From: Variimorphobacter saccharofermentans
GTDB lineage: Bacteria; Bacillota; Clostridia; Lachnospirales; Lachnospiraceae
Length of the DNA: 64,000 nucleotides
Assembly: GCF_014174405.1 (NCBI RefSeq)
Contig: NZ_JACEGA010000001.1
Location: forward strand, 3,202,501 to 3,266,500
Reading direction: 5' to 3'
Shown: positions 30,080-48,351 of the stretch, piece after piece
Layout: every line of letters starts with the position of its first letter
Numbering within the stretch: position 1 is the stretch's first letter
Translations under genes and position numbers: made by a program
The notes under the pieces: generated by a model
Seen by the model: the letters and a program-made list of their open reading frames with translations, nothing else
Database searches by the model: none
What the model was told of the DNA's origin: nothing

Positions 30080-31618
30080 TCACTTACCACACTCTGCTTG
30101 TACTGCCTCTGACCAAGGCATCAAAAATTTCAGATCTTCTGGGTGATTATGATAATCCGTATCAGGCATATACAATAATAAGTATTCTAGATATGTATAT
30201 ACATTAAGTCCGTTTGCTTTTGCTGTTTCGACTATGCTATATACTGCAGCACTTGCTTCAGCTCCTTTCGGTGTATCTGAAAATAGCCAGTTTTTACGGC
30301 CAATACAGAATGGACGTATGCTGTTTTCTGCTGTATTGTTTGAAATGGAGCATCTTCCATCAAGAAGATAATTCTCCATATATGGCTTCTGATTCTTTGC
30401 ATACGTTACAGCTTTACCTAGAGCAGAGCCATTTAATACCGTAAGGTTTTCAAGCCAGCACCAAAAGGCATCAAGGACTGGGCGTTCCAGTTCAAGACGC
30501 TTAGTATATCTAACTTCAGGGGACAGTTCCTTAAGACTTTCCTCTATAAGGAAGAGCTTATTGCAGTAGTCCCTTCCGATTTCTGCATTGGTAGGTGGGG
30601 CATTCTTTGCCTTCTTTCCAGGAATAGCCTCTATGAACTTCCTTCGAAGGTGAGCCCAACAACCGCACCGGATAACTTCAAGCTTGTTATATCCACCGTA
30701 TCCATCGGTATGAAGATATCCTCTGAACCCCTTTAGGTATTCGACTGGATTATCACCGTTTCTTGTTGGTCTGTAATCATACAAGATGATGGGAGCTTTC
30801 CCGTCATTACCAGAGCGATAAAGCCACATGTAGGACTTCGTCTGAGGTTTTTTACCATCCTCCTTCAGTACTTGGATAGGTGTTTCATCGCAATGAATGA
30901 TATCCCTTTCTAGTAGCTTCTTCCTTAAGTACTGGATTACAGGATAGAAATAATCTTGGGAGCAACGTATAATCCAGTTAGCCATAGTGCTACGTTTTAA
31001 GGCAATACCGAGATTCTCCCAGTCCTTTTCCTGGCGATAAAGTGGCATGCTATTCACGTATTTCTGATACATTACGTTGGCTACAGAACTTGGTGATGCA
31101 AGTGAATGGTTCATTAAAGATGTCGGTGTAGGTGCCTTTTCTATATAGGGTTTGTCGGTATGTTTACACTTAGGACATTCATAAGCCATTCGGACATAAC
31201 GAACAATACGTAGTTTAGCAGGTATGTACTCCAGCTCCTCACGAACCGTTTCCTTACCGATTGGTTTTAGATTATTCCCACACTGAATACAGTACTGATC
31301 CTCTATAGGAATCTCACACAGGATTTCACGGACAGGAAGATCTTTTATAATTTCTACTCTCTTTGTCTTTGTATGAGTCCGGGTGTAACCCTTTACTTCT
31401 TTGGTTATAGGTTCTGGATCAGGAGAATCAGAATAAGCTTCTGCCTCATTGAACAAATGTAGTTGTCCTTCAATATCATCCTTAGGAGTTTTTTCACTGG
31501 ATGAACCGAACTTTTCCTTCCGAAGTATTAGTATCATCTCCGTAAGATTATCTACTTGTAGTTGTAACTTTTTTATTGTATTTTCGAGCTGTTCAATGTA
31601 AGCATCTTTATTATTCAT
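30080..31618 (-). CDS. tnpC: IS66 transposase TnpC (copy A)
   Basis: 512 residues. An N-terminal coiled coil (IEQLENTIKKLQLQVDNLTE) and the LRKEKFGSSSEK motif are followed by a zinc-finger-like CxxC pair (QYCIQCG, YECPKCKHTD). The DDE domain has HCDETPIQVL, HTDGYGGYNK and the late CSISNNTAENSIRPFCIGRK segment. ATG 31618 is the better start, because GGAG lies 11 nt upstream. The alternative is at 31639. It supplies the catalytic step of transposition together with TnpA and TnpB. Confidence 0.92.
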   Translation of the reverse strand: MNNKDAYIEQLENTIKKLQLQVDNLTEMILILRKEKFGSSSEKTPKDDIEGQLHLFNEAEAYSDSPDPEPITKEVKGYTRTHTKTKRVEIIKDLPVREILCEIPIEDQYCIQCGNNLKPIGKETVREELEYIPAKLRIVRYVRMAYECPKCKHTDKPYIEKAPTPTSLMNHSLASPSSVANVMYQKYVNSMPLYRQEKDWENLGIALKRSTMANWIIRCSQDYFYPVIQYLRKKLLERDIIHCDETPIQVLKEDGKKPQTKSYMWLYRSGNDGKAPIILYDYRPTRNGDNPVEYLKGFRGYLHTDGYGGYNKLEVIRCGCWAHLRRKFIEAIPGKKAKNAPPTNAEIGRDYCNKLFLIEESLKELSPEVRYTKRLELERPVLDAFWCWLENLTVLNGSALGKAVTYAKNQKPYMENYLLDGRCSISNNTAENSIRPFCIGRKNWLFSDTPKGAEASAAVYSIVETAKANGLNVYTYLEYLLLYMPDTDYHNHPEDLKFLMPWSEAVQAECGK

Positions 31619-31720
31619 CAGTGGTTTTTCTCCTACCATATATTCTAAACTTGATAGGTTTATTATACCATAAAAACAGCTAAAAGGCTAGTAAAATCAA
31701 TACTTTCAGTCACTTTCCAC

Positions 31721-32077
31721 TTAACAAAAAGCACCCTGTTTGACAGTCTTAATAGCCTTTGGTTGGTCGATAGAAAGTCCCTCCATTAACCAGCGAAATT
31801 CCTGCCAGGTAAGGAGTTTTACCTCATCTTGACTACGAGGCCATTTGAAATTTCCGCTCTCTAATCTTTTATAAAGAAGAACAAATCCATCTCCTTCCCA
31901 AAGGAGTGCCTTGAGCCTATCCCGGCGTTTACCGCAGAAAAGAAAGAGACTCTTTGAAAAAGGATCTAGATGGAACTGTTCTTGTACCACTGCAGCTAGT
32001 CCATCAATTGATTTACGCATATCTGTGTAGCCACAGGCAATGTAGATGTTCTTAGCTACAGTAATATCGCCTAGCAT
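31721..32077 (-). CDS. tnpB: IS66 accessory protein TnpB (copy A)
   Basis: 118 residues, a complete TnpB (Orf2). Signature segments are IACGYTDMRKSIDGLAAVVQ, LFLFCGKRRDRLKALLWEGD and EFRWLMEGL. TnpB is required for IS66 transposition but its biochemical role is not well defined. Its start overlaps the tnpA stop by 7 nt, suggesting coupled translation. Confidence 0.93.
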   Translation of the reverse strand: MLGDITVAKNIYIACGYTDMRKSIDGLAAVVQEQFHLDPFSKSLFLFCGKRRDRLKALLWEGDGFVLLYKRLESGNFKWPRSQDEVKLLTWQEFRWLMEGLSIDQPKAIKTVKQGAFC

Positions 32078-32430
32078 ATATTTTTCAGTGCTAGAAGCAC
32101 TGCTTCAATAGTCTGCCCGCTTGCTCCATTATGTACTTCAAGTGTAGCAGATGGAAGATGGATAATGACTGATGCCATAAGATTGGTTTGCTGTGCTTCT
32201 ATTTCAAACTTGGCAAACTCAACTTGTGAATCTTGCTTAGGTATTGCGGGTAGAATAGCTTCACATGCTTTTTTACGTATCTTACGAAGCCAATAGTAAT
32301 AAGCGTGACGGCTGATATGATTTTTCTGGCACCAGTCGTCAACCTTAAGCCCACTGTTTTGACAGTCCTCAATTAGTTTTTCCCATTGTTCTTGACGGAA
32401 CTTTGTTTTTACATAGGTAACTTCATCCAT
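32071..32430 (-). CDS. tnpA: IS66 accessory protein TnpA (copy A)
   Basis: 119 residues with the N-terminal helix-turn-helix-like segment WEKLIEDCQNSGLKVDDWCQ and YYYWLRKIRKKA, typical of IS66 Orf1. It probably binds DNA. It is the first gene of copy A. An inverted repeat around 32450-32480 (AAGTTTTTCAAGTT with AACTTGAAAAACTT) sits in its leader. Confidence 0.9.
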   Translation of the reverse strand: MDEVTYVKTKFRQEQWEKLIEDCQNSGLKVDDWCQKNHISRHAYYYWLRKIRKKACEAILPAIPKQDSQVEFAKFEIEAQQTNLMASVIIHLPSATLEVHNGASGQTIEAVLLALKNIC

Positions 32431-32553
32431 GTTTCACAACTCCTTTCTAAAGTTTTTCAAGTTGAAAAACTTGAAAAACTTTAACTCAATATTTAGAGTT
32501 ATTATCACATGGATCTCTAAAATAGAATAGGCACTCTATTGTCGAGCGCTTAC

Positions 32554-33711
32554 TTATGGCACTTGCTTGTGCTCCAGCGATGCTTTTGCAGAACAGCCAA
32601 TTGCGGCGTCCGATTCCGAAGGTTTTGATGCTCCTCTCACAATCGTTATTGTCGATGGCCAAGTGACCATTTTCTAAATATCGGAGCAAATATTTCTCTT
32701 GATTGATCGAATAGAGAATTGCATCCCCGATTTTGGACTTATGATCTAGTTCCTCTGTATCCATTGTACGAAGCCATGCAAAATAAGCTTCAGCAACAGG
32801 TTTTGCCTGCTCCTGACGCACTTGATATCGTTCTTCTGGAGAACTCTCCCGAATAGATGCCTCTATGTCATATAGTTTACCTATACGGCATAAAGCTTCG
32901 TATGCAATCGAGTTTTTCCATTCCCCATTCTTAAGATCCTTCTTCAGAATGGTAAGACATTCATCAAAGCGTCTCCTGGCATGTGCCATACAGCCAGTGA
33001 CTATGATGTTGTCCGGAAGCCCATGGTAAGCACTATATCCGTCAGTGGTTAAATACCCGGTATATCCTTCTAAGAAGGTTTTGGGATGATAGCCACCTCT
33101 GGTTCTTTCATACTGAAAGATTACCATTTGAGGACCTCCACTGAGTGCGTCGGTCATGTATACCCACATCCAGTTCTTTGTCGATGCCTTTTGTTCTGGC
33201 TCATCTAGCACCTGACATCTGGTTTCATCACAGTGGGTATAGTGTCCCTTCAACAAAGCTTGTTTCATCCTTTCATAAATCAGATAGAGATAGTCCTCGC
33301 TACAGCGAATCATCCAGTTTGCCATGGTCTTGTCTTCCAGATTCAGCCCATAGCGCTTGAATTCCTGCGATTGACGGTAGAGGGGCACTCCATTCACGTA
33401 TTTTGAATTCATAATGCCAGCCACAAGGGTAGGGGTTGCAATGCTTCCCTTCAGTAGGGAGGGATCTTTCTTTGTTCTTTTCATTTTACTGCAGTTGGTA
33501 CAGGAATAAACATATACGACATCCTCTACGGTAATGAACTGAGCAGGTATAAATTTTAGAGTGCGGCTTACTTCGGTAGAGACCACCTTAAATTTATGCC
33601 CACAATCATCGCAGAGTAGATCATCTCCGGTAAGTTTATGCTTCACCGTTTCCACTTCAAAAACAGAAAGATCATTCTCTTTCTTTCCCTTGGGCTTTTT
33701 GCGATTATAGG
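32554..33711 (-). pseudogene. IS66 TnpC (copy B), both ends broken
   Basis: The frame encodes the middle of TnpC: zinc-finger cysteines (LLCDDCGHKF, VYSCTNCSKM), GVPLYRQSQEFKRYGLNLED, HCDETRCQVL, TTDGYSAYHGL and AIDNNDCERSIKTFGIGRRN. The C-terminus is cut at ASAI by copy A and resumes at 30006. The N-terminus is cut at RKKPKGKK, where copy C begins. Its own tnpA and tnpB are missing from the window. The open frame (33751 to 32486) uses bases from both neighbouring IS ends. Confidence 0.9.
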
Positions 33712-33776
33712 TAAACGGTAGATAGTGAGTACCCCTATAAAAATTCGCCACTCTGATGAGTGACGAAGATATTTAC

Positions 33777-35378
33777 CTATTTTCTGCATTCCGCAGGCAG
33801 CTTTGGCGACCACGGAAGCAGGTCTTCACAGAAACTCCGGTCTGTTTCATCCAGATGCTTCGGGATTTCTGTCAGAAGATATTCGAAGTAATTATAAGGT
33901 TTCAAATTGTTTACTTTCGCCGTTTCGGCAATACTGTAAATAATGGCACTGGATTTAGCCCCATTGATGGTATCGATCATTACCCAGTTTTTCTTACCGA
34001 TACAAAAACCACGGATTGATTGTTCAGCAGCATTATTGTCCATTGGCACTTCACCATCATCCAGGAATGCTTTTAGATATTTTTCCTAATTGATGGAATA
34101 GTTAAATCCACTCCATGTTTTGCTTTTTGAAAGAACTTTGCCGATGTGTTCTTTTACCCATACAAAGTAAGCCTCTACCAATGGTTTCACACTGACCTGG
34201 CGAAGTTTCAGTCTTTCTTCCGGTGAGAGCTCGCTTAATCGCTTTTCTTCCCGGTAGATTGCCTGTATCTGCTTTAATGCCAGATATGCAAGGCTGCTCT
34301 TTTGATCTTTCTCAGGAAGAGCCTTGACCGCTTCATCATATCTACGTCGGGCATGCGCCCAACAACCGGCGATGGTCAGATTGTCACGTTCTTTATCTAA
34401 GGTGTGATATACCTGATAACCATCGGTAACACAGACTCCCTTGAAATTCTTAAGGAATTCTCTTGGGTGGCTTGTGTTTCTGGTCTGTTGGTAATCGTAT
34501 AGGACGATTTGCTTGTCCTGATACATCCTACCCGTACGGTAGACCCACATATAACTCTTAGATCCGGCAGTACGCCCGTCCTTATTAACAAGGACTGGTG
34601 TCTCATCTGCCTGAAGTACATGATAATCATAAATCCGTTCATGTAGATAATCATATAGGATTGCCAGATATCGGTCTGCACATTGGATGGTCCAGTTTGC
34701 CATATCCTGACGGGAGATGTTAAGATTATATCGTTCAAACTCTTTTTCCAAACGGTAAAGAGGAACAGCATTGACATATTTTCCGTTTATGATAGCAGCT
34801 TCCAACGATGGAGATACCAGGCTATTTCTAAGAAGATAGCCCGGATGCTTTGCTTTTATTATGTGATCATCCTTTTTACTGGCATAAACAGCTACGTGAT
34901 GTTCTTCCACCTCTACTTTAGACGGGGTGAATTTATATCGTTTGTACACTTCATCCGGAAGCTGTTTCCATGCTGATCCGCCAAATTCCTTTCTGAGTTC
35001 TTCTTCAGACATGGTATGCTCAATCTTAACGATAGGAAGTCCCTTTAAATCTTCTTCTCGTTTGCCTTTGCGTTTCGTTGGTTTTGATTTTACGGTATCT
35101 TCATCTTCGACATCGATCTCGCCTAGGTTGGCAACTGCCTCTGCCTCATTGAAAAACACAATCTGATCGTCTACTTCTTTAAAGGCGATCTGCTGATCGA
35201 TATCTAGCTTTTCAGAAGACCTGCCATAGCGTTTATGGTTTGCTGTGGCAAGCTGTTCAAGCACCAATTGAAGTTTTTGGTCAATGGACGCAAGCTGTTC
35301 CTGATTGGCTAGAAGCAACTGAACCAATACGACCTTATCGAAGCTATTCAGTTGTTCTTCGGTATATTTTATTGCCAT
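33777..35378 (-). pseudogene. IS66 TnpC (copy C) with an internal amber codon
   Basis: The frame is open on both sides of a TAG at 34086-34088. Upstream ends WSGFNYSIN, and downstream resumes EKYLKAFLDDGEVPMDNNAA. The homologous copy D has INQEQYL at the same place, so a glutamine codon (CAG to TAG) has mutated. The rest is a full TnpC: LKRYGRSSEK-type N-terminus, HVLQADETPVLV, VTDGYQVYHTL and AEQSIRGFCIGKKNW. ATG 35378 has AAAGGATGG upstream. Probably inactive unless the codon is suppressed or is a sequence error. Confidence 0.9.
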
Positions 35379-35658
35379 AACAGACCATCCTTTCATTAAG
35401 TCTATTATAGCGTATTATGCTTTATTTGGCGAATTTCATTTTCTGACAGCTTCGTCATAATGCCTATGGTTGTAAGGCTTTGTGAATCCCGTAATGGAGT
35501 GGTAATTAAATGCCTTTCGAAATGTCAAATTTTATTTTTTGATAAATATCGCTTATATATCGCTGCCTGAAGGTATGTAGAAGGCAATCATTTATAGATG
35601 ATTCTACGTTTTTTAAACGTGTAAAAACAAGATATATTTTCTCTGTTTTGCACAAAGC

Positions 35659-36018
35659 TTATGTAACATACTCCGGTGATACCGGCTTTACAGACTTCTT
35701 CGGGGTTATGGTAAGCCCTTCCATTAGCCAACGGAATTGCTGTGGGGTTAGAACTCTAACTTCTGCAGCATTACGAGGCCATTGATATTGACCAGCTGCG
35801 AGGCGCTTATATAGCAGGAGATAGCCATCCTTTTCCCAGACTAACCCCTTTATACGATCCGCTTTTCTTCCACAAAAAAGATAAAGTGTATCAGGCGAAA
35901 AAGGATCTATACCGGTTTGCGTTTCTATGATACCAGCCAGACGGTCAATACCGGAACGAAGATCTGTATATCCAGTCACTAGGTAGATTTGCTTAAAACA
36001 TGTGGCATCATTGAGCAT
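35659..36018 (-). CDS. tnpB: IS66 accessory protein TnpB (copy C)
   Basis: 119 residues, intact, with LVTGYTDLRSGIDRLAGIIE, TLYLFCGRKADRIKGLVWEK and QQFRWLMEGL. Its start overlaps the tnpA stop. A 280-bp spacer (35379-35658) separates it from tnpC. That spacer has no gene and includes a GTAGAA/TTCTAC inverted repeat near 35575-35607. Confidence 0.92.
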   Translation of the reverse strand: MLNDATCFKQIYLVTGYTDLRSGIDRLAGIIETQTGIDPFSPDTLYLFCGRKADRIKGLVWEKDGYLLLYKRLAAGQYQWPRNAAEVRVLTPQQFRWLMEGLTITPKKSVKPVSPEYVT

Positions 36019-36376
36019 GAGAGATCACCTGTAGTATTGTAGACAGTAGATCTAATGATGTAGCTTCTGTCACATGAATAGAAAAGCCGTTCACAGAGAT
36101 ATCCAGACCTGTACTTGTGCTCGGAGCAGATTTAGGATTCATGACTTCAGCCGGTACCGGCACAATTGATGTTGAAATCATGTCCTTTGGCATGCTTTCG
36201 AGACAGGCTTCCCGAACCTTGCGAAGTCTATAGTAATAATCCGCTTTGGTTATGTTGTTTTGTGCACACCAATCGATGACTTTCATTCCATCAGGTCGAT
36301 TCTGACAGGCACGAACCTGCTCAGCCCATTCCTGCAATCGATAGCGTGTGGCAATCATACTTGTTGTTGAGCTCAT
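36008..36376 (-). CDS. tnpA: IS66 accessory protein TnpA (copy C)
   Basis: 122 residues from ATG 36376, which has AAGGAGG just upstream. A longer frame to 36415 has no site. The helix-turn-helix-like segment RLQEWAEQVRACQ to DWCAQNNITKADYYYRLRKV is characteristic. The C-terminus (VNGFSIHVTEATSLDLLSTI) matches the TnpA of copy D. Confidence 0.88.
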   Translation of the reverse strand: MSSTTSMIATRYRLQEWAEQVRACQNRPDGMKVIDWCAQNNITKADYYYRLRKVREACLESMPKDMISTSIVPVPAEVMNPKSAPSTSTGLDISVNGFSIHVTEATSLDLLSTILQVISHAQ

Positions 36377-36501
36377 AGACTTACCTCCTTGTAAGGAGTC
36401 AAAAAAGTTGAGCACTGAACTTTTTTGACCCGGTTAAATAATAAGTCTATTTTCTCAAAAATCTATACAGCGGTCTAGAGTACCCATTATCTACCGCTTA
36501 C

Positions 36502-36554
36502 GAAATTGGAGCTCATCTATCCGTATGGAGTAATAGCTTTTTAGAATTTTTGTC
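36502..36554. other. Short pre-insertion fragment between IS66 copies C and D
   Basis: 53 bp of non-IS DNA. Its last 8 bp (TTTTTGTC) are the target of copy D, so before that insertion it continued directly into 39212. Confidence 0.8.
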
Positions 36555-36678
36555 GTAAACGGTAAATCTCTTGTACATTAAAAAATAAAATCACATATGG
36601 GATAATACTCTAAGTTGAATAAGTTGAAAAAGTTGACAACATTTTAAACTTTTCAAACAATCTTAGGAGGTTATCTTC

Positions 36679-37035
36679 ATGAATGCAAAAAATATGAAAA
36701 AGGAATATAACTTAAAGCAATGGCATCTTATAATTCAAGACTGCCGTAACAGTGGCATGAAAGTAGACGACTGGTGTAAACAAAACGATGTTAATCGTAA
36801 TTCATACTATTATTGGTATAAAAAGATTCGTGAAGCTGCATGTGAAGTTTTAACCGAAAGCAATGTAGCCGTATCACCTTCCTTTGCATCTGTTCCTATG
36901 AATGTAATTGAACCTATCAATAATGGAAATCAAGGGTCACTAAACATATCTATTGGTAAAGTTAAAATAGAAGTTACAGAGAACACTTCACCTGATATAC
37001 TACGTATGGTGCTGGAGGTACTTTCTAATGCTTAA
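36679..37035 (+). CDS. tnpA: IS66 accessory protein TnpA (copy D)
   Basis: 118 residues, start after TTAGGAGG. LKQWHLIIQDCRNSGMKVDD and NSYYYWYKKIREAACEVL are the usual Orf1 DNA-binding-like region. The leader contains GTTGAATAAGTTGAAAAAGT-type repeats like that of copy A. It overlaps tnpB by 8 nt. Confidence 0.9.
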   Translation: MNAKNMKKEYNLKQWHLIIQDCRNSGMKVDDWCKQNDVNRNSYYYWYKKIREAACEVLTESNVAVSPSFASVPMNVIEPINNGNQGSLNISIGKVKIEVTENTSPDILRMVLEVLSNA

Positions 37036-37387
37036 TGATGCTACAGGTTTTAAGGCTGTATATATCGCCTGTGGTTATACCGACCTGCGGCGTGGTATAG
37101 ATGGTTTATCTGTTATTATTGATAAAACCTTTCATCTAAATCCTTTTGAGTCTGGTACCTTATTTCTCTTTTGCGGAAGGAGAACTGATCGTATCAAGGG
37201 ACTTTTATGGGAGGGAGATGGTTTTCTATTGCTCTACAAACGCCTTGAAAATGGCAAGTTCCAATGGCCAAGAAATGAAGATGAAGTGCGTCAAATGACA
37301 TCACAACAATTTCGTTGGTTGATGGAAGGACTATCAGTAGAGCCAAAAAAAGTTGTCCACACAGTCAAACCAAAACGGACTGCATAG
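37028..37387 (+). CDS. tnpB: IS66 accessory protein TnpB (copy D)
   Basis: 119 residues, intact. IACGYTDLRRGIDGLSVIID, TLFLFCGRRTDRIKGLLWEG and QQFRWLMEGLSV are the family signature. The start overlaps the tnpA stop, so translation is probably coupled. Confidence 0.93.
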   Translation: MLNDATGFKAVYIACGYTDLRRGIDGLSVIIDKTFHLNPFESGTLFLFCGRRTDRIKGLLWEGDGFLLLYKRLENGKFQWPRNEDEVRQMTSQQFRWLMEGLSVEPKKVVHTVKPKRTA

Positions 37388-37516
37388 GGCTATAATTAGT
37401 GGATAAAGTTTCTCCATAAAGCCCTGATTTTACTCGGTTTCGCTATGTTTTCCACAACTTTTAAAAGTTGTTTCAAATCTCTTTACATGCAGTTTTTATT
37501 ATGCTATGTTTGACAC

Positions 37517-39145
37517 ATGATGATAGAAAACTATAGTGTAAACCAATTAACTAAATATACTAAGAAAGAGATCATAGATCTTTTTCTAAATCAGCAAGAG
37601 AGCCTAAAACTCCTTCGTGGGGAAATGGAGCTGCTAAACAAAAACATGAATCTATTATTAGAGCAGCTAAAGGTCTCCAATCAAGCAAGGTTTGGAAGTT
37701 CCTCTGAAAAGATTGATATAGAGATTTCAGAACAACTTCAATTATGTTTTAACGAAGCAGAGGTTACCATTGCTACTGCAGGAGAGATTGCAGAGCCAAC
37801 AATAGAGCAAGTAGTGTCTGGGCATACACGTCGTGTAAAACCCCAAGGGAAACGAGATGCGGATTTGGAGGGGTTACCTATTCGTGTGGAGGAACACTTT
37901 CTTTCAGAGGAGAAGCTACAGGAACTTTTCGGTGGTAGCTATCGTAGGCTACCTGATGAAGTTTATAAAAAACTTGATTTTCATCCTGCAACCTTTGAAG
38001 TTGTAGAACATCACGTAGCCGTGTATTGCGGTAATAAAAATCAGACAATCGTACGGGCAGATCGTCCTTCAGAGCTATTGAAAAATAGCATTGTTACACC
38101 TTCGCTTCTTGCTGCAGTATTAAATGCTAAATATATAAACTCCCTACCTTTGTATCGTCTTGAGCAGGAATTTAAAAGGTATGATGTAAATATCTCAAGA
38201 CAGGTAATGTCTAACTGGGTCATTACTGGAAGTGAACGATATTTATCGCTTCTTTATGACCGGATGCATGATGAGCTTTATAAAAGTCATGTGCTTCATG
38301 CAGATGAAACCCCATTTAAGGTAACAAAGGATGGACGTGATACCATGACCAATAGTTACATGTGGGTATATCGCTCTGGTAAGGATGGTGGAGGGCCCCC
38401 AGCAATCCTATATGAGTATCAGAAAACTCGTAAATCAGATCATCCTGCACAGTTCTTAAAGGAGTTCCAGGGCGTAGTGGTTTGTGATGGTTATCAAAGC
38501 TATCATAAGATAGCCAATGAGCGGCCTGATGAACTGAAAGTGGCAGGATGCTGGACTCATGCGAGAAGACGCTTCGCCCAGCTATGCAAAGCCCTTGGCA
38601 AAGAGAAAGCCAAAGGAACTCTAGCAGAAGCTGCAGTTGGTCAGATAGCAGCTATCTACCATGTGGATAATAGCCTATCAGATCTTAAACAAGATGAAAA
38701 ACTACGTGAACGACAACTTCATGTCAAGCCTTTAGTAGAGGCCTTCTTTACGTGGGTAAAAGCCAATAGGCATACAGTTCCTGAAAAATCTGAAACAGGA
38801 AAAGCTTTTACTTATTGCATAAATCAAGAACAGTACCTACGTACTTTTCTAGAGGATCCAACAGTGCCCCTGGATAATAATTCTGCTGAAATAGCAATTC
38901 GCAGTTTTTGCGTTGGTAAACATAATTGGCACCTGATAGATACTATAAATGGAGCAAAGGCAAGCGCAATTGTGTACAGTATTGCAGAAACCGCAAAGGC
39001 AAACAACTTAAAACCTTATAATTATTTTAAATTTATCTTAGAAGAGATTCCTAAGTATGTAGATGGAAAGGATACAAAGTTCCTAGAAGACCTACTTCCA
39101 TGGTCTCCAAATCTTCCAGATGAATGCAAAAAACAAAGTAATTAA
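37517..39145 (+). CDS. tnpC: IS66 transposase TnpC (copy D)
   Basis: 542 residues, full length. N-terminal coiled coil (ESLKLLRGEMELLNKNMNLL), ARFGSSSEK motif, and the DDE domain with HVLHADETPFKVTKDG, VCDGYQSYHKI and VPLDNNSAEIAIRSFCVGKH. No strong ribosome binding site precedes ATG 37517 or 37520, so it may be translated weakly. It is the only TnpC in the window besides that of copy A without a visible lesion. Confidence 0.93.
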   Translation: MMIENYSVNQLTKYTKKEIIDLFLNQQESLKLLRGEMELLNKNMNLLLEQLKVSNQARFGSSSEKIDIEISEQLQLCFNEAEVTIATAGEIAEPTIEQVVSGHTRRVKPQGKRDADLEGLPIRVEEHFLSEEKLQELFGGSYRRLPDEVYKKLDFHPATFEVVEHHVAVYCGNKNQTIVRADRPSELLKNSIVTPSLLAAVLNAKYINSLPLYRLEQEFKRYDVNISRQVMSNWVITGSERYLSLLYDRMHDELYKSHVLHADETPFKVTKDGRDTMTNSYMWVYRSGKDGGGPPAILYEYQKTRKSDHPAQFLKEFQGVVVCDGYQSYHKIANERPDELKVAGCWTHARRRFAQLCKALGKEKAKGTLAEAAVGQIAAIYHVDNSLSDLKQDEKLRERQLHVKPLVEAFFTWVKANRHTVPEKSETGKAFTYCINQEQYLRTFLEDPTVPLDNNSAEIAIRSFCVGKHNWHLIDTINGAKASAIVYSIAETAKANNLKPYNYFKFILEEIPKYVDGKDTKFLEDLLPWSPNLPDECKKQSN

Positions 39146-39602: not shown

Positions 39603-40130
39603 ATGCTTATGATAACGATATCTACCGAATATTGCAATCCTATTTCACAAGATTCCTACGAAAATTTAATTAATTCTCTTCAATTCCACCAGTTGACCTG
39701 CACCTGTGGGCATTCTGCATGCCTTACGATTCATGGCTACTATGATCGTAACATAAAACTGAAGGACCATTCTGTTCTTTTACATATCTGCCGCGTAAAA
39801 TGCAACCATTGTAATACAACACACGCCTTACTTCCATCGTTTATTGTTCCTTATTCACAGATCTCGTTACCTGATCAGGTGGATATCATTTCCTGTCATG
39901 AGAACTCTGGTAACTACTCCGATGTCATGGAGAGAACTCCCTCCATTGATGAAAACTGTATTCACTCTATCGTTCGCAGATATATCCACCACTGGCTTCA
40001 GCGGATTTTGTCTTTTAAGCTCTTTGTCTCCACATCCCACACCTTCATCCAGATCTGTTTTTTACATTACGGTCGCCAATTTATGCAGGTTAAAAAAACA
40101 CCAAATATTTTATTTCTAACACCCACATAA
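39603..40130 (+). CDS. DUF6431-type zinc-finger protein of the transposon
   Basis: 175 residues. Two cysteine pairs (LTCTCGHSACLTIHGYYDR and VKCNHCNTTHALLPSFIVPY) form the zinc-ribbon-like DUF6431 region, followed by SQISLPDQVDIISC and a basic helical C-terminus. Proteins of this type are found next to TniA-like integrases in Clostridia and I infer a DNA-binding or target-selection role. No strong ribosome binding site precedes ATG 39603. The second ATG at 39609 is equally possible. Confidence 0.65.
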   Translation: MLMITISTEYCNPISQDSYENLINSLQFHQLTCTCGHSACLTIHGYYDRNIKLKDHSVLLHICRVKCNHCNTTHALLPSFIVPYSQISLPDQVDIISCHENSGNYSDVMERTPSIDENCIHSIVRRYIHHWLQRILSFKLFVSTSHTFIQICFLHYGRQFMQVKKTPNILFLTPT

Positions 40131-40167
40131 CCTTACACGACATCCCATATGGAACCTTCTATACTAT

Positions 40168-40188
40168 AAGTGTATTCCGAATACACTT
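40168..40188. promoter_or_regulatory. 21-bp palindrome before the transposase gene
   Basis: AAGTGTATTC and GAATACACTT are separated by one base. The palindrome lies 25 nt before ATG 40214, just ahead of the AGGAGG. It could be an operator for self-repression or a hairpin controlling translation. Confidence 0.5.
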
Positions 40189-40213
40189 CAAAAAAACAAA
40201 GGAGGTTTCCATT

Positions 40214-41458
40214 ATGACCCAGGAACAAACACATGAAATCGCACTAATGCGCTATTCTGTCATCGCACCACTCATCTCAGGACTTCAGGACAGCTTTTCA
40301 TCCAATGAGGCTTTCTTTCGTGATGCCTCTGCAAGAGGTGTAATGGCACCGGATGGTACCACAAAACACTTTGCACCAACTACCATTAAGAAATGGTACA
40401 ACCACTACAATAAAGGTGGCTTTGATGCTCTTGTTCCTTCCTCAAGAGCTGACCTTGGAAAACCCAGAAAACTTGATGATGAACTTCAGGAACAGATAAA
40501 ATATCTTAAGACCAACTATCCACGAATGTCAGCTGCCGCTATTTACCGTCAGCTACGGGATAACGGAAGTATCCGTCCGGATGACCTGTCAGAATCAACG
40601 GTGAACCGCTATCTTAACTCTCTGGCTCTGGAAATGAAAACTACAACAAATCAGGATATGCGCCGTTATGAACGCCCGCACATTAATGAAGTCTGGTGTG
40701 GTGATAGTAGTGTTGGTCCTTACCTTAAGACAGTCGATGGAAAGAAACACAAGGTCTATATCATTGCCCTCATTGACGATGCCAGTCGTTTTATTGTTGG
40801 AATTGATATCTTCTTCAATGACAACTTTGTAAATCTGATGTCTGTTATGAAATCTGCGGTTGCAAAGTATGGCCGTCCACAGATGTTTAATTTCGATAAC
40901 GGTTCCTCCTATAAGAATAAACAGATGGAACTTCTTGCAGCCCGTCTTGGTTCCATCATCCATTATGACCAACCGTATACTCCAACCCAGAAGGCAAAAA
41001 TTGAGCGGTGGTTTCGGACCATGAAGGACCAATGGATGGCAGCCCTGGATATCCGCGACTTTCACTCACTTGACGAGCTTCGTGGAAACTTGATGGCTTA
41101 TGTAAACCACTACAACCAGTCGGTTCATTCCTCTTTAAAAGGCAAGTCTCCGCAGGACCGATTTTTCTCAGAACCGGAACGCATCCGTCGTCTTTCCGAA
41201 GAAGAGATTGATCATAACTTCTTGCTTGAAATTGAACGTCGCGTTTCTGCCGACAGTGTTATTACCATTGACCAGGTGGAATACGAAGTCGACTGCCGTT
41301 TTGCAAAGCAGCGTATCCGTCTACGCTATTCTCCGGGTATGGAAGAAATCTTTATCGTGGAATCGGATGGAACACTTACTCCGATCCGACTGCTCAACAA
41401 GCATGAGAATGCATTTGTAAAACGTGAAAAAATACATTTATGTAGAGGTGATGAATAA
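40214..41458 (+). CDS. DDE integrase/transposase, TniA/Mu-like (rve domain)
   Basis: 414 residues. An N-terminal helix-turn-helix region (FAPTTIKKWYNHYNKGGFDA) and a second one (RMSAAAIYRQLRDNGSIRPD) are followed by the rve catalytic core. DDE residues are in NEVWCGDSSVGPYL, MFNFDNGSSYKN and KAKIERWFRTMKDQW. The C-terminal Mu-type beta barrel (ITIDQVEYEVDCRFAKQRIR) is present. It cuts and joins the transposon ends and works with the ATPase encoded immediately downstream (stop and start codons overlap). AGGAGG precedes the start. Confidence 0.9.
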   Translation: MTQEQTHEIALMRYSVIAPLISGLQDSFSSNEAFFRDASARGVMAPDGTTKHFAPTTIKKWYNHYNKGGFDALVPSSRADLGKPRKLDDELQEQIKYLKTNYPRMSAAAIYRQLRDNGSIRPDDLSESTVNRYLNSLALEMKTTTNQDMRRYERPHINEVWCGDSSVGPYLKTVDGKKHKVYIIALIDDASRFIVGIDIFFNDNFVNLMSVMKSAVAKYGRPQMFNFDNGSSYKNKQMELLAARLGSIIHYDQPYTPTQKAKIERWFRTMKDQWMAALDIRDFHSLDELRGNLMAYVNHYNQSVHSSLKGKSPQDRFFSEPERIRRLSEEEIDHNFLLEIERRVSADSVITIDQVEYEVDCRFAKQRIRLRYSPGMEEIFIVESDGTLTPIRLLNKHENAFVKREKIHLCRGDE

Positions 41459-42258
41459 TGGATTATACGATTCGCTATGGTATGGAATTCAATCCATTTT
41501 TAAAGAATTCCAAAGAGATACTGATTCACACAAACGAATACAAGGAAACACAGTTCCGTCTGGACTATCTTGCAAAAACAAAGGGCTTCGGACTTCTTAC
41601 TGGAAGCCCCGGCAGAGGCAAGACGACTGCTGTCCGAAACTGGGCAGTTACATTAAATCCTTCTCTTTACAAAGTGGTATACTCCAGCTTTTCCACCCTT
41701 ACTGCCAATGATTTCTACCGGAATCTTGTAACAGAACTCGGGGCACAACCTGTGTTTCGTAAACCAGACAACTTCCGGATTATCCAGGATGAAATCACAC
41801 GACTTGCTGTGGAAAAACGCAAAACTCCTGTCATCATCATAGATGAAGCGAATTACATCAATAATGCAATTCTGAATGATTTGAAGATCCTATTCAACTT
41901 TGAAATGGATTCCAAAGACCGGGCAGCTATTCTGCTCACTGGGCTTCCCACACTGAATTCCACGCTTAAGCTTGGTATTCATGAACCTCTTCGTCAGCGA
42001 ATCGTCATGAATTACGAAATCGGTGGTCTGACCAAAGAAGAAGGACGCCAGTATATCTCTGAAAAATTAAAAAGTGCCGGCTGTAATCAGCCTGTTTTTG
42101 AGGATAACGCCATAGAAGCTGTCCTCAACGCAGCTGACGGTGTACCTCGTATGATAAACAAACTTTGCAATGCCTGTCTTCTTATTGGAGACAGTACGAG
42201 ATCTGATATCATAACCTCTGATATCGTCATGAAAGCTGTCAATGACAGCGAACTTTAA
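41458..42258 (+). CDS. AAA ATPase, TniB/ExeA-like transposition protein
   Basis: 266 residues. Walker A is LLTGSPGRGKTTAVRNWA, Walker B is VIIIDEANYI, and sensor-like residues lie in LLTGLPTLNSTLKLGIHEPL and LRQRIVMNYEIGGL. This is the ExeA/TniB/MuB-like group, which picks target DNA and activates the DDE transposase. The start overlaps the transposase stop codon by one base, so translation is coupled. Confidence 0.9.
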   Translation: MDYTIRYGMEFNPFLKNSKEILIHTNEYKETQFRLDYLAKTKGFGLLTGSPGRGKTTAVRNWAVTLNPSLYKVVYSSFSTLTANDFYRNLVTELGAQPVFRKPDNFRIIQDEITRLAVEKRKTPVIIIDEANYINNAILNDLKILFNFEMDSKDRAAILLTGLPTLNSTLKLGIHEPLRQRIVMNYEIGGLTKEEGRQYISEKLKSAGCNQPVFEDNAIEAVLNAADGVPRMINKLCNACLLIGDSTRSDIITSDIVMKAVNDSEL

Positions 42259-42751: not shown

Positions 42752-43365
42752 CTAATCTGCGGGACAACATCCAGTTTCATCAAGTAATAGTAGGCCTATA
42801 TTATTTTTTATATATTCTTCTTTAATAATATTATTTTTTTAGTAACTCTTTCTTTATCCAATACAACAAATGAGTAGTCAGAAAAGCTCTTATTAAAAAT
42901 TGCTTGTTCTAATGCTTCTTGCCATTTTTGAAGTTTTAATTCTAAAGTGATTATTTCTTCCGGTATTAATTTTCTCCATTCAGTAGCTATATACTTCTGT
43001 CTTGAAACCTTTAATATTAATTTCCTTTTTTCCAAGACTTCTAAACAATCAACAATTTTTTGCTTATCCATAAAAATATGTTTTTGCACTTTGTTTACAG
43101 TTATTTCGTCATATATTGAGAATAAAGCCAATATATCTAATATATAATTTTCTATATATTTAAATTTTTTCTCATACTCACTATCCAATAAACTAGATAT
43201 TTTATCATCTTGAATTATAGCGACTACCAAATCAATCATACGATAATACACCGGTAATTCTTCTGCTATAATAAAATCGTCCTGATAAGAAATAGTTTTA
43301 AACAAAAATTCTTTTACATTACTTTTCATTTTAGGTGTCATCTCTTTTTCTAATGCAAAAGCCAT
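42752..43365 (-). pseudogene. Winged-helix protein with a PD-(D/E)XK-like C-terminal region, frameshifted in a poly-A tract
   Basis: As written the frame ends at 42808 after 185 residues. It has an N-terminal helical region, a winged-helix-like part (DILALFSIYDEITVNKVQKH, VDCLEVLEKRKLILKV) and a segment resembling a restriction-type nuclease core (EIITLELKLQKWQEALEQ, DYSFVVLDKERV), with an ExK pair. It stops abruptly after an A7 tract (42834-42840). Adding one A continues the frame to 42752 with KEEYIKNNIGLLLLDETG, a natural ending for this fold. This could be a real mutation, phase-variable slippage or a sequence error. It lies downstream of the retron gene on the same strand. Confidence 0.65.
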
Positions 43366-43623: not shown

Positions 43624-45318
43624 TTAATTTCTCATATGTTCAATAACATCATGAATTGGAATAAAGCCATGTTTAAATTCCGGGTCATTAGACTCATCGT
43701 CTTCCTCTAAACTAGTGACTCCACCTTTAATAATTCCCACAACTTCATGTAATAGGTCCAATACCACTCCACCACTAGCTCCTTTTGCAATCCTTCCACT
43801 TATTGTATATAATTCTTGTCCAAAATACGAAGTTTTGTTCGTAATATAGCATGTATGTATATATGGTGTATCTCCATCCATATAATTTGGATAACCAATA
43901 ATAATAACTTTATCTCCAGCTTTTAAATTACTAGAATCGCCTAATTCAAAACCGTTTTGTGACTTATCAAAATTATTACATATATTAATATAGCAAGCAT
44001 AATCAATTTCATAGCTTTCTTTATATAAATTCGAACTTTTTGTTATCACTCCAACTTGCTTGCCGGTATTTTTTTTAACAGAGTAGAAATTATCATCGGG
44101 TATAACATGGTAACTAGTCATTAAACCGTATGTTTTTAGTAAAAATCCGGAACCTTGCCTTGCAACGTTCTTACTCGTACATTGCAATATGAATATATTG
44201 TCGTCTATCATATTATGAAATTTGTCATACTCATCAATATTAAATATTTTTTTGTTAGAAATTATATTTAGTTGTTTTGCATATTTTAAAAATGTTGGAT
44301 TATCATTACCTTTTATTAATTTAATATATCCAATTTTCCCTTTTAAGACTTGCTCAAACCAATTAGACACATCTTCTTTTCTGTCAACTTTGTCTTCATT
44401 TTGAATATATGCTTTTATACGATGATTATTGCATTTTCCCTTATTGACATATATTTTTGCACTATCATATATCCCTTTATTCTTACAACAATGTAATATT
44501 GCCCTAACTTCTTTTATATATTCTCGTTTTAAATTAGTAAATTTATTGACAACCAACCCTGTCACTTCTTGTCTTCGTCTGTTGTCCATCAGTCTAACTT
44601 TGTTCATATTTACAACAAAGTTATTCTTTTTTAATATAAACTCTAGCTCTTTACCAATATGTATATCACCTTTATCCAGATATACTAAGGCTTCAGGAAA
44701 GGAATTTTTATAACATGAAAAAGTTATATCATCTGCATATCGCGTATAAACAACTTGGTTCTTTTTAGCTAGGTGCGTCAACTGCGTATCTAATGGTGAG
44801 CAAATCATATTCGTTATAATTGGTGAAGTAGGAGCTCCTTGAGGTAATACACCACGATAACACGCAATTTGAGCGATTACCATCGCCGCTTCTTCTCCCA
44901 AATTATATGGTGGTTTCATGAATAACCCACGGACCCTACCAAAATGAATTTGTGTAAAAAAATCTTTTAAATCAATATTCAAAACATTTTTTCTTTTACA
45001 GTGGTTATCAGCATTTTGATAAATACTTTTATTTTTAACGAATCCATATGAAGCAGGTTTCACCTTATATGCTATATTAAGTATGTCTGCTAGTTTTCGT
45101 TGTATACTTCTAAGCTTTTTATTGGGTGCAGATATTTTTCTATATTCGCCATTTTTCTTAGGTATCTTAAATTCTGTATACATATTGTCTGGCTTTATTG
45201 CATATAAAAAATATCTAAGGCTTTTGTCTTCTATTTGTAAAATATCAGCGACATCTTCCCTAGATTGCATTTGATAAAACAGCTTTTCAGTTTCTATATC
45301 TGTTCTTGCATTAATCAT
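43624..45318 (-). CDS. Retron-type reverse transcriptase fused to a trypsin-like protease
   Basis: 564 residues. Residues about 30-330 are a retron-type reverse transcriptase. KIPKKNGEYRKISAPNKKLR is the early motif, LNIDLKDFFTQIHFGRVRGL holds the first catalytic aspartate, GVLPQGAPTSPIITNMICSP follows, VYTRYADDITFS carries the YADD pair, and EVTGLVVNKFTNLKREYIKE is the thumb region typical of retrons. Residues about 385-564 are a trypsin-like domain: GSGFLLKTYGLMTSYHVIPD (histidine), ESYEIDYACYI (aspartate) and AKGASGGVVLD (serine). There is no maturase or endonuclease domain. A candidate msr-msd RNA lies just upstream. Retrons are anti-phage systems in which the reverse transcriptase makes an RNA-DNA hybrid controlling a toxic effector, and the protease is the likely effector. 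The ribosome binding site before ATG 45318 is weak. Confidence 0.92.
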   Translation of the reverse strand: MINARTDIETEKLFYQMQSREDVADILQIEDKSLRYFLYAIKPDNMYTEFKIPKKNGEYRKISAPNKKLRSIQRKLADILNIAYKVKPASYGFVKNKSIYQNADNHCKRKNVLNIDLKDFFTQIHFGRVRGLFMKPPYNLGEEAAMVIAQIACYRGVLPQGAPTSPIITNMICSPLDTQLTHLAKKNQVVYTRYADDITFSCYKNSFPEALVYLDKGDIHIGKELEFILKKNNFVVNMNKVRLMDNRRRQEVTGLVVNKFTNLKREYIKEVRAILHCCKNKGIYDSAKIYVNKGKCNNHRIKAYIQNEDKVDRKEDVSNWFEQVLKGKIGYIKLIKGNDNPTFLKYAKQLNIISNKKIFNIDEYDKFHNMIDDNIFILQCTSKNVARQGSGFLLKTYGLMTSYHVIPDDNFYSVKKNTGKQVGVITKSSNLYKESYEIDYACYINICNNFDKSQNGFELGDSSNLKAGDKVIIIGYPNYMDGDTPYIHTCYITNKTSYFGQELYTISGRIAKGASGGVVLDLLHEVVGIIKGGVTSLEEDDESNDPEFKHGFIPIHDVIEHMRN

Positions 45319-45342
45319 TTTACGACTTGTTTCCCTTCTAAA

Positions 45343-45475
45343 ATATATAGGAGAATTCTACCTTATCATTATTACATTATAGTATATATAATAATTAACA
45401 TACAGCTGGATATCCTGTTGACATTCTTGTACATCGTTGCAGTATCACTAACGAAAATCAATTCTCCTATATATA
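45343..45475 (-). ncRNA. Candidate retron msr-msd RNA bounded by a1/a2 inverted repeats
   Basis: A perfect 15-bp inverted repeat, AATTCTCCTATATAT (45460-45474) and ATATATAGGAGAATT (45343-45357), encloses 102 nt. In retrons such a pair (a1 and a2) closes the RNA from which the reverse transcriptase copies DNA. Inside, read on the minus strand, ATTATTA with TAATAAT makes an AT-rich stem that could be the msd, and ACAGGATATCCAGCTGT offers a small msr stem. A guanosine follows the a1 repeat. The promoter at 45480-45508 would start transcription at the a1 edge, and the reverse transcriptase gene begins 24 nt after the a2 edge. The detailed fold was not computed. Confidence 0.75.
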
Positions 45476-45479
45476 CATT

Positions 45480-45508
45480 ATTATACCATTTTCTACAAAT
45501 TTAATCAA
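45480..45508 (-). promoter_or_regulatory. Promoter of the retron
   Basis: On the minus strand TTGATT (45508-45503) and TATAAT (45485-45480) are 17 nt apart. The start point 6-8 nt later coincides with the outer edge of the a1 repeat. Confidence 0.8.
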
Positions 45509-45562
45509 ACCATTCTAACAAATTCCTCCATCAAAATATAAATATGAACATTTTAATAAAAA

Positions 45563-45591
45563 GACACTACCATACATAATATGATAGTGCC
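45563..45591 (-). terminator. Terminator downstream of ppdK
   Basis: On the minus strand GGCACTATCAT and ATGGTAGTGTC pair around a 7-nt loop and lead into TTTTTATT. Confidence 0.75.
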
Positions 45592-45607
45592 TTCTACTGC
45601 CATATAA

Positions 45608-45730
45608 CTATATCCAAGCCTCAACAGTAATATCATCCCACTGATTACGTCTCAGATACGCTCCATAGCTTTTTCTATATTCTTTTGCTTCATCAAAACT
45701 TATCGTATGCTCGAAGAGTTTGAATTCGCT
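45608..45730 (-). pseudogene. Coding-like remnant directly after ppdK
   Basis: A frame different from that of ppdK reads SEFKLFEHTISFDEAKEYRK and SYGAYLRRNQWDDITVEAWI before TAG 45608. The composition is protein-like, with alternating charged and aromatic residues, but there is no start codon or ribosome binding site. It overlaps the last bases of ppdK. It may be the end of a gene lost by deletion. I do not recognise the family. Confidence 0.35.
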
Positions 45731-48351
45731 TATCTTTGATTCAATGCTGCCTGTGCTGCTGCAAGTCTTGCGATCGGCACACGGAAAGGTGAACAGGATA
45801 CATAGTTCAATCCTACCTTATGGCAGAACTCTACTGTAGAAGGATCTCCACCATGCTCACCGCAGATACCAAGCTTAATTGTAGGTCTGGTAGCACGTCC
45901 CTTTTCAGATGCCATCTTCACTAACTGACCAACACCTTCCTGGTCAAGTCTTGCAAATGGATCTGATTCATAGATCTTATTCTTGTAGTAAGCATCTAAG
46001 AACTTACCAGCATCATCACGAGAGAAACCAAATGTCATCTGTGTTAAATCGTTGGTACCGAAGGAGAAGAATTCTGCTTCTTCTGCGATTTCATCAGCAA
46101 GTAATGCTGCACGAGGAATCTCGATCATAGTACCTACATGATACTCGATATCGGAGCCCATTTCCTTCTTAACTGCTTCTGCTGTCTCAACAACTACTTC
46201 CTTAACATATTTTAACTCTCTCTTCTCACCAACAAGAGGTATCATGATTTCAGGAACAATATCGTAACCTTTTTCTTTCTTTACTTCAATAGCAGCTTCC
46301 ATAACGGCTCTGGTCTGCATTTTTGCAATTTCAGGATAGGTTACTGCAAGACGGCAACCTCTGTGACCCATCATCGGGTTGAACTCATGTAAGGAATCAC
46401 AGGTGTCTTTTACTTCCTGTACGGAAAGACCCATATCTTTTGCCAATGCAGCGATATCTGCTTCATCCGTAGGAACGAACTCATGTAACGGAGGATCTAA
46501 GAAACGGATAGTAACCGGTCTTCCTTCCATTACCTCATAAAGAGCCTTAAAGTCACCCTTCTGGAAAGGAATTAACTCATTTAATGCTGCTTCTCTTGCT
46601 TCTACTGTCTTACTTAAGATCATCTTTCTGATCTTAGGAATTCTATCAGCTTCGAAGAACATATGCTCTGTACGGCAGAGACCAATACCTTCTGCACCAA
46701 ATTTTACAGCATTTGCTGCATCTGCAGGAGTATCTGCATTAGTTCTTACCTTTAAGGTTCTGATCTCATCAGCCCATTTCATAATTCTTTCAAAGTTACC
46801 ACTGATGGAAGCTTCTACAGTAGGAATATCTCCAATGTAGATGTTACCTGTGGAACCGTCAAGGGAGATATAATCTCCTTCTTTTACTGTATTACCAGCT
46901 AATGTAAAGTATTTTTCCTCTTCATTAATTGTAATATCACCGCAACCAGATACACAAGCAGTACCCATACCACGAGCAACTACTGCTGCATGAGAAGTCA
47001 TACCGCCACGTACAGTTAAGATACCTTCAGCTGCATGCATACCTTCGATATCTTCCGGTGATGTCTCAAGACGAACAAGAATTACTCTCTCGCCTTTTTC
47101 ATGATGATTCTTAGCATCTTCTGCTGTAAAGTATACTCTACCAGCAGCTGCACCAGGAGATGCAGGTAATGCGCTTCCTACAGGCTTAGCTGCTTTTAAT
47201 GCTGCAGCATCAAAGGTAGGATGTAATAACTGATCTAAGGATTTTGCTTCAATTCTCTTGATAGCCTCTTCCTTGGTAATCTTTCCTTCATCTACTAAAT
47301 CACAAGCAATCTTCAAAGCAGCAGGTGCTGTTCTCTTACCGTTACGTGTCTGTAAGAAGTAAAGCTTCTTGTCCTCAATTGTGAACTCCATATCCTGCAT
47401 ATCTTTGTAGTGATTCTCAAGTAAGGTAGCAATTCTCATGAACTCTGCATAAGCTTCCGGCATATCTTCCTCTAACTTTGTGATAGGTTGAGGAGTTCTG
47501 ATACCAGCAACTACGTCTTCACCCTGAGCATTGATTAAGTATTCACCATAAATCTTTGCTTCACCGGTGGAAGGATTACGAGTAAATGCAACACCAGTAC
47601 CGGAAGTATCACCCATGTTACCAAATACCATAGCCTGAACGTTAACAGCAGTACCCCAATCACCAGGGATGTCATTCATTCTTCTATAGTAGATCGCACG
47701 AGGATTATCCCAAGAACGGAATACAGCGGTAACAGCTTCGATTAACTGATCTTCTGGATTCTGAGGGAAATCGGTGCCTTTTTCTTCTTTATAAAGAGCC
47801 TTAAACTGTGCAATAACTTCTTTTAAGTCTTCTGCAGTAAGCTCGGTGTCAAAATGAACACCCTTCTTTTCTTTGATTTCATCCAAAACTCTTTCGAACT
47901 TGGATTTGCTGATCTCCATAACTACGTCAGAGAACATCTGGATAAATCTTCTATAGGAGTCATATGCAAATCTCGGATTTCCTGTCTTCTTTGCAAAGCC
48001 TTCTACAGCTACATCTGTTAAACCTAAGTTCAGGATGGTATCCATCATACCAGGCATGGAAGCTCTAGCGCCAGAACGAACGGATACTAACAAAGGATTC
48101 TCGGTATCACCGAATTTCTTTCCCTGCTGTTCCTCAAGTTGCTTTAAGGCTGCAAAGATCTGATCCTTAATTTCATCTCTAATTTTCTTGCCACTATTGT
48201 AGTAATCTGTACAAGCTTCTGTCGTTACAGTAAATCCTTGAGGAATTGGAAGACCTAAATTAGTCATTTCTGCTAAGTTAGCGCCTTTACCACCAAGAAG
48301 GTTTTTCATATCTGCCTTACCTTCTTTAAACAAATATACCCATTTTGTCAT
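45730..48351 (-). CDS. ppdK: Pyruvate, phosphate dikinase
   Basis: 873 residues, normal length. The N-terminal ATP-binding domain opens GKGANLAEMTNLGLPIPQGF. The phosphohistidine domain has GGMTSHAAVVARGMGTACVS with the catalytic histidine. The C-terminal PEP/pyruvate domain has HEFNPMMGHRGCRLAV, EFFSFGTNDLTQMTFGFSRD and the catalytic cysteine segment LGICGEHGGDPSTVEF. The enzyme interconverts pyruvate, ATP and phosphate with PEP, AMP and pyrophosphate. In fermentative clostridia it often works in the glycolytic direction together with, or instead of, pyruvate kinase, which is also in this window. TTAGGAGGG precedes the start, and two large hairpins lie 50-220 nt upstream. Confidence 0.97.
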   Translation of the reverse strand: MTKWVYLFKEGKADMKNLLGGKGANLAEMTNLGLPIPQGFTVTTEACTDYYNSGKKIRDEIKDQIFAALKQLEEQQGKKFGDTENPLLVSVRSGARASMPGMMDTILNLGLTDVAVEGFAKKTGNPRFAYDSYRRFIQMFSDVVMEISKSKFERVLDEIKEKKGVHFDTELTAEDLKEVIAQFKALYKEEKGTDFPQNPEDQLIEAVTAVFRSWDNPRAIYYRRMNDIPGDWGTAVNVQAMVFGNMGDTSGTGVAFTRNPSTGEAKIYGEYLINAQGEDVVAGIRTPQPITKLEEDMPEAYAEFMRIATLLENHYKDMQDMEFTIEDKKLYFLQTRNGKRTAPAALKIACDLVDEGKITKEEAIKRIEAKSLDQLLHPTFDAAALKAAKPVGSALPASPGAAAGRVYFTAEDAKNHHEKGERVILVRLETSPEDIEGMHAAEGILTVRGGMTSHAAVVARGMGTACVSGCGDITINEEEKYFTLAGNTVKEGDYISLDGSTGNIYIGDIPTVEASISGNFERIMKWADEIRTLKVRTNADTPADAANAVKFGAEGIGLCRTEHMFFEADRIPKIRKMILSKTVEAREAALNELIPFQKGDFKALYEVMEGRPVTIRFLDPPLHEFVPTDEADIAALAKDMGLSVQEVKDTCDSLHEFNPMMGHRGCRLAVTYPEIAKMQTRAVMEAAIEVKKEKGYDIVPEIMIPLVGEKRELKYVKEVVVETAEAVKKEMGSDIEYHVGTMIEIPRAALLADEIAEEAEFFSFGTNDLTQMTFGFSRDDAGKFLDAYYKNKIYESDPFARLDQEGVGQLVKMASEKGRATRPTIKLGICGEHGGDPSTVEFCHKVGLNYVSCSPFRVPIARLAAAQAALNQR

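Follow-up and report, generated by a model that had tools for sequence, protein, structure and literature searches.

A probable bacterial retron joining a reverse transcriptase to a serine protease beside its own RNA gene in Variimorphobacter saccharofermentans

Results

Reverse transcriptase-protease fusion gene

The stretch analyzed here, a window of 64,000 nucleotides from Variimorphobacter saccharofermentans (contig NZ_JACEGA010000001.1, positions 3,202,501 to 3,266,500), contains a locus that is probably a bacterial retron with an anti-virus role, in which a reverse transcriptase (RT) is joined to a protease beside its own RNA gene. The fusion protein, 564 residues long, is encoded by an uninterrupted open reading frame (ORF) at 43624-45318 on the minus strand; the plus-strand reading of the same interval contains many stops. 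The best PADLOC match was RT-Protease_XI (PDLC02959/PDLC02960; E = 2.8e-165), with residues 14-562 aligned to profile positions 3-504 of 506, i.e. over its full length, and the type name XI is taken from these 2023 models. The runners-up, RT-TIR_XII (6.3e-122) and RT-Toprim_I-C (5.2e-107), aligned with the RT part only. The only Pfam domains found in the protein were RVT_1 (residues 52-255, E = 1.1e-24), Trypsin_2 (residues 389-529, E = 8.9e-12) and Trypsin, the first two over their curated cut-offs, and none of the listed NCBIfam models reached its cut-off (retron_Ec67_fus, 349 of 450 bits; Retron_TIR_antiphage, 348 of 600 bits). A database search scored 7998 candidates, 7938 of which passed an E value of 0.001; each of the 120 homologues listed from these has the two Pfam domains, with identities of 48-100%. 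A chance origin of the fusion was excluded based on the PADLOC match, the two Pfam matches and the presence of both domains in all 120 listed homologues.

A first-pass annotation had described a single fusion of a retron-type RT with a trypsin-like domain at this place, and the exact ORF, both Pfam domains and the full-length PADLOC match bear this out; the motifs on which it drew (RYADD, GVLPQGAPTSP, a His, an Asp and GASGG) are all present in the translated ORF. It gave no strand, and its boundaries match the ORF exactly but omit two further parts of the system described below, the RNA gene (about 45343-45474) and the promoter-like site (45480-45508). It had also mentioned earlier surveys of protease-fused retrons, in agreement with the PADLOC models, in which the RT-protease class was already catalogued, and with PMC12405507, where "protease" is listed among RT-fused effectors; proteases are also named among retron-associated effectors in PMC8867640. 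The window locus thus adds a well-formed member to a catalogued class.

Residue conservation and placement of the RT

In order to assess conservation, two sets were compared: 37 RT-protease loci, defined by ORFs matching both RT and protease profiles (L002 was dropped as a duplicate of L001), and an alignment of 42 rows, A1, made up of the window protein plus 41 homologues chosen by going down the list of 120. The retron RT part covers residues 14-360 approximately (44239-45279, minus strand) and includes NAxxH (residues 102-106), D116, YADD (194-197) and VTG (252-254), the NAxxH and VTG motifs being hallmarks of retrons. N102, H106, D116, Y194, D196, D197 and T253 were invariant in all 37 loci, and A103, G254 (35 of 37 each) and V252 (36 of 37) nearly so. 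The best-matching solved RT structures were those of retron RTs (the first 14 rows of one structure comparison and the first 18 of another). In an RT tree of 153 rows, the window RT fell within a set of five RT-protease rows with 100% support, the other four members being three Bacillota records and L182, a genome from the window's class. Together with the top three PADLOC families (XI, XII and I-C), these results place the RT with retron RTs, as first annotated.

Parsimony required 15 changes of the protease label along the same tree, and well-supported branches forced at least five. In an approximately unbiased (AU) test on 119 rows, from which those under 200 bits and near-duplicates had been dropped, a single clade of the 37 protease-fused RTs (37 vs. 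82 rows) was not rejected (p = 0.271). The idea that retron RTs acquired proteases independently several times was considered, and no such claim is made because of this result.

RNA gene and promoter-like site

Two perfect 15-nucleotide (nt) inverted repeats, 102 nt apart, were found between ppdK and the ATG of the RT-protease gene. These arms of the non-coding RNA (ncRNA), a1 (45460-45474) and a2 (45343-45357, 24 bases before the start codon), pair with each other on the minus strand, and none of 20 shuffles was as good. The same arrangement was present upstream of the gene in L022, L023, L024 and L182, whose proteins are 49-56% identical to that of the window. In the alignment of the five RNA sequences, 13 of 32 predicted pairs showed two-sided changes with pairing preserved in one or more of the sequences, and 11 of these 13 belong to the 18 a1/a2 pairs; in L024, one arm is G/C-richer than in the other close loci and its partner arm follows suit. 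Across all 37 loci, the best a1/a2 pair beat all 20 shuffles in 26.

The order downstream of a1 was the same in the five close loci: a G, five mostly U residues, and a stem-loop of 18-19 nt, nearly invariant at its core. In the window (all on the minus strand), the stem-loop assigned to msr has 19 nt (45435-45453) and begins five nt past the G at 45459, and the likely msd template, with approximate limits at 45358-45401, was placed between msr and a2 following the usual layout of retrons. By its position directly 3' of a1, the same as that of rG15 in the Eco2 retron (PMC12405507), G45459 is a candidate branching (priming) residue. The base after a1 was G in all five close loci and in 16 of the 26 loci whose a1/a2 pair beats all shuffles.

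A covariance model built from the five loci, which recovers them by construction, was searched against 62 sources drawn from the loci and the window. Among the other 57 sources there were five weak matches (L100, E = 0.036; L110, 0.85; L028, 0.87; L120, 1.2; L085, 2.0), all on the right strand and at or just before the RT ORF; two more weak matches lay elsewhere, at 26289-26344 of the window and at 3148-3220 of L022. In Rfam, a search of 45200-45800 with E values up to 10 gave a single match, to a CRISPR repeat on the opposite strand and no better than chance (E = 8.1), and no curated family covers the RNA at that threshold. A motif of the loop region (A/T, C/T, TGC, A/G, at most 60 nt after a1) occurred in 12 of the 26 loci vs. 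4.2 expected, and was left unused because it had been chosen after viewing the sequences and mismatches three of the five close loci as written.

A promoter-like site, TTGATT-17-TATAAT with an extended -10 (TG), is located at 45480-45508 on the minus strand, and is the only listed site with the TG. Sequence match alone is weak in this A/T-rich region (23 such sites vs. 17.1 in shuffles), so the assignment was argued from its position 5 bases before a1. As the site ends at 45480, transcription would start about a1.

Protease domain

The trypsin/HtrA-type serine protease domain covers residues 366-564 approximately (43627-44223, minus strand). The first-pass annotation had proposed a trypsin or HtrA fold with a catalytic triad; the predicted structure contains such a domain, as judged from fold matches, and the triad is invariant. 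His404 (codon 44107-44109), Asp439 (44002-44004) and Ser515 within GASGG (43774-43776), all on the minus strand, were conserved in 37/37 loci and 42/42 rows of A1, and in a pairwise alignment with mycobacterial HtrA1 all three were paired with its triad residues, His404 with the HtrA His. G513 was also invariant in the 37 loci. No Pfam match to a PDZ domain was obtained up to an E value of 0.1 and, since the protease is fused to the RT, the protein is presumably cytosolic.

Six residues before Ser515, Arg509 occupies what we take to be position 189 in chymotrypsin numbering. Arginine was found there in 40 of the 42 A1 rows but in only four of the 37 loci, each of them a member of the Bacillota branch. 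A basic residue at this position could favor an acidic P1 and so offer a clue to substrate choice.

Discussion

Proposed mechanism

A self-contained type XI retron, whose C-terminal HtrA-type protease would be gated by multicopy single-stranded DNA (msDNA) and serve as the anti-phage effector, is the reading favored here, with moderate confidence. It builds on the observed fusion, the conserved catalytic residues of both halves, the fold matches, the covarying RNA gene and the lack of a recurrent partner among the neighbors surveyed below. The mechanism is modeled on Eco2, with the effector swapped to a serine protease. According to PMC12405507, msDNA made by the Eco2 RT keeps the fused effector inactive, and phage action on the msDNA frees it, halting infection; the trigger step is a proposal of its authors from escaper phages. 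By this analogy we infer that msDNA is made and is inhibitory, that a phage provides the trigger and that killing is by proteolysis of some substrate, together with protease activity and an abortive outcome of infection. The msr-msd RNA gene (45343-45474) would be transcribed along with the RT-protease gene or slightly before it. The RT half would use the 2'-OH of the G next to a1 as its primer and copy msd, yielding msDNA that stays bound to the RT, and the protease may be kept inactive within the RT-msDNA complex. A phage function that damages, modifies or sequesters the msDNA could then release the protease in the cytosol, where it would cut host and/or phage proteins, and the infected cell would stop growing or die ahead of phage release.

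A narrower version of this mechanism is put forward tentatively, as a possibility that we consider rather doubtful: a cytosolic protease executioner that, unaided by a partner enzyme, directly attacks a host or phage protein of wide occurrence, the preference of the Bacillota branch possibly being set by Arg509. If true, reverse-transcribed DNA would control cell suicide by proteolysis, and the substrates would differ between branches.

Several observations weigh against the msDNA-gated protease retron. At least one shuffle equaled the best a1/a2 pair in 11 of the 37 loci, and the ncRNA region, folded as a single sequence, is unremarkable (z = -0.57). The msr stem-loop stretch folded alone was not unusually stable either (z = +1.05), and for the 48 nt after a1 the fold z fell below -2 in only two of 26 loci; given these ordinary values, support for the RNA comes from the paired arms and their covariation, not from stability. 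The covariance model found one of the 32 further RT-protease loci, and weakly (L085), so the case for the RNA gene is regarded as firm within the Bacillota branch and as no more than suggestive elsewhere. In the protease, residue 512 (codon 43783-43785), three residues before the catalytic Ser515, is Lys in the window copy and His in the other 41 of the 42 A1 rows; because of this replacement of a near-invariant residue, full activity of the window copy is not certain. Invariance of the triad is also to be read with the choice of the 37 loci in mind, as picking by RT and protease profile match favors intact domains and badly decayed proteases would be missed. Lys512 might even point to a decaying or inactive copy, which we consider highly improbable: the gene has neither frameshift nor stop, the triad, YADD, NAxxH and VTG are intact, and the promoter-like site and RNA are present.

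Partner genes and alternative roles of the protease

No recurrent partner gene was found among 184 neighbor ORFs (at least 90 aa, within 2.5 kb) of the 37 loci, in some of which short flanks (L001, about 1.5 kb per side; L182, a short contig) mean that a farther partner would be missed. Only two pairs of similar neighbors were detected: the truncated PPDK ORF of L001 resembles an ORF near L050, and an ORF near L029 resembles one near L055. This result, together with the msr-msd-like RNA and its covarying a1/a2 arms directly upstream, supports the initial view of a single protein plus its RNA.

The same survey bears on the possibility, in our view unlikely, that the protease is not the killer itself and instead activates another effector by cleavage. 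Trypsin-like proteases fused to defense proteins do so in Hachiman and AVAST variants, where they activate metallo-beta-lactamase (MBL)-type pro-nucleases encoded immediately upstream, and the nuclease-protease pair also occurs in Lamassu and in rare variants of defense-associated reverse transcriptases (DRT) (PMC12799240). In the Hachiman and AVAST variants described there the protease is fused N-terminally, whereas here it is C-terminal and the upstream gene is ppdK. Moreover, none of the 184 neighbor ORFs carries an MBL-like motif (a motif test only), and no neighbor is common to more than two loci. A protease of this activating kind might nevertheless have an unlinked or housekeeping protein as its substrate.

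The protease could also act on its own RT-msDNA complex, through self-cleavage or turnover; it would then serve as a regulator or release switch and not be toxic to other proteins. Its tethering in cis fits such a role, and HtrA-type proteases are often regulated by assembly. We consider this quite improbable, as it would leave the system with no separate effector, given that no partner gene recurs; besides, the fused Toprim of the closest solved relative acts as an effector (PMC12405507).

Genomic surroundings

The flanks of the gene, with ppdK (directly upstream), glyS, recO and era on one side and IS66-family transposases, an IS481/IS3-like transposase (below NCBIfam cut-offs) and an AAA ATPase on the other, do not form a recognized defense island, and the RT-protease was the only one of three scanned window proteins matched by PADLOC. 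Both facts would suit a retron without a phage-defense role, its msDNA and protease serving some other stress or quality-control function. Such a role is judged very unlikely, since other retrons act against phage, among them Eco2, itself an RT-effector fusion (PMC12405507), and sporadic presence together with a variable, transposon-rich site fits an accessory defense gene. The site after ppdK was taken as variable because, in eight same-genus relatives, the ORFs there differ from those of the window and, by eye, also among themselves, only L190 and L191 looking alike; two further stretches were too short for comparison.

An IS66-family transposon gene cluster with small accessory ORFs extends over both strands at 30080-39145, the transposases at 34086-35396 and 37517-39145 matching the IS66 model and those at 30080-31639 and 32486-33751 being IS66-like by eye. 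Just beyond the retron, at 39603-42258, there is a possible transposition module with a DUF6431 ORF and the IS481/IS3-like transposase (414 aa, below curated cut-offs) overlapping the AAA ATPase (266 aa). The downstream ORF of 185 aa at 42808-43365 (minus strand) was rejected as a component, not being common to other RT-protease loci; it showed a weak DUF4423-like match, below cut-off.

Distribution of RT-protease loci

Occurrence of the system is rare and patchy. For many genomes, the large searches scored no more than the few top candidates of a first look (usually three). In these searches, the family gave an RT-protease in 1 of 397 genomes and the phylum in 1 of 398, both times in the window's own genome. 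In the class, 2 of 391 genomes had one, and of 22 genomes from the family to which the second belongs, one did. In a set of 61 genomes, no listed match besides that of the window's own genome spanned both halves. A genome contig scan with one sequence as query gave no match; in the scan with alignment A1, the best 80 of 565 relatives were kept. Plasmid records gave five matches at E 1e-60, of which two covered 80% or more of the protein (32-35% identity), and phage records three at E 1e-30, none over 80% of the protein. Viral contigs supplied seven of the 37 loci. The RT-protease loci also include Vibrio, Pseudomonas, Corallococcus, Rhizobium and Acidobacteria records.

Variants of the architecture were also seen. 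In a Parcubacteria contig (L082, 3956-5561), RT (331 aa) and protease (214 aa) are two ORFs with an 8-base overlap, reflecting a split gene or a frameshift. Cyanobacterial loci, including L028, L030, L032-L034, L038 and L040, encode stand-alone RTs of about 360-405 aa; L028, the only one of them scanned, matched RT-Protease_XI best yet has no protease, so this profile alone can mislabel stand-alone RTs.

Significance and comparison with known systems

In the open-licence literature searched, no experimental test of an RT-protease retron was found. The complete unit, comprising promoter-like site, RNA and one protein with conserved catalytic residues, spans about 1.9 kb and is directly testable. 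If active, it would demonstrate control of a protease by RT-made DNA, and the substrate would reveal a cellular process that phage cannot do without.

Trypsin-like proteases are likewise fused to defense proteins in the nuclease-protease pairs of Hachiman, AVAST, Lamassu and DRT variants (PMC12799240), with an N-terminal fusion there vs. a C-terminal one here, where neighbor ORFs lack an MBL-type nuclease motif. With the HtrA/Deg serine proteases the window protein has the fold and the H-D-S triad in common, and differs in its fusion to an RT and in lacking a PDZ match. RT-TIR retrons (type XII), the second-best PADLOC family, resemble it in the RT part only, no TIR domain being found by Pfam. 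In Eco2 (Ec67; type I-C, RT-Toprim), the effector is a Toprim nuclease instead of a serine protease, and Pfam found no Toprim domain in the window protein. The RNA layout is like that described for Eco2 (IRa1, branching rG15, a 4-nt single strand, one stem-loop, msd and IRa2), with an msd of about 44 nt here (approximate) vs. 67 nt (PMC12405507).

The closest likeness is to type XI retrons (RT-Protease_XI), with which the window copy shares a single-gene architecture along its full length. It is set apart from them by its position in the Bacillota branch, the fully supported set of five, and scored 549 bits with PDLC02960 vs. 664 for a Vibrio member. Protease identity is only 17-30% with the 32 loci beyond this branch, compared with 43-49% within it.
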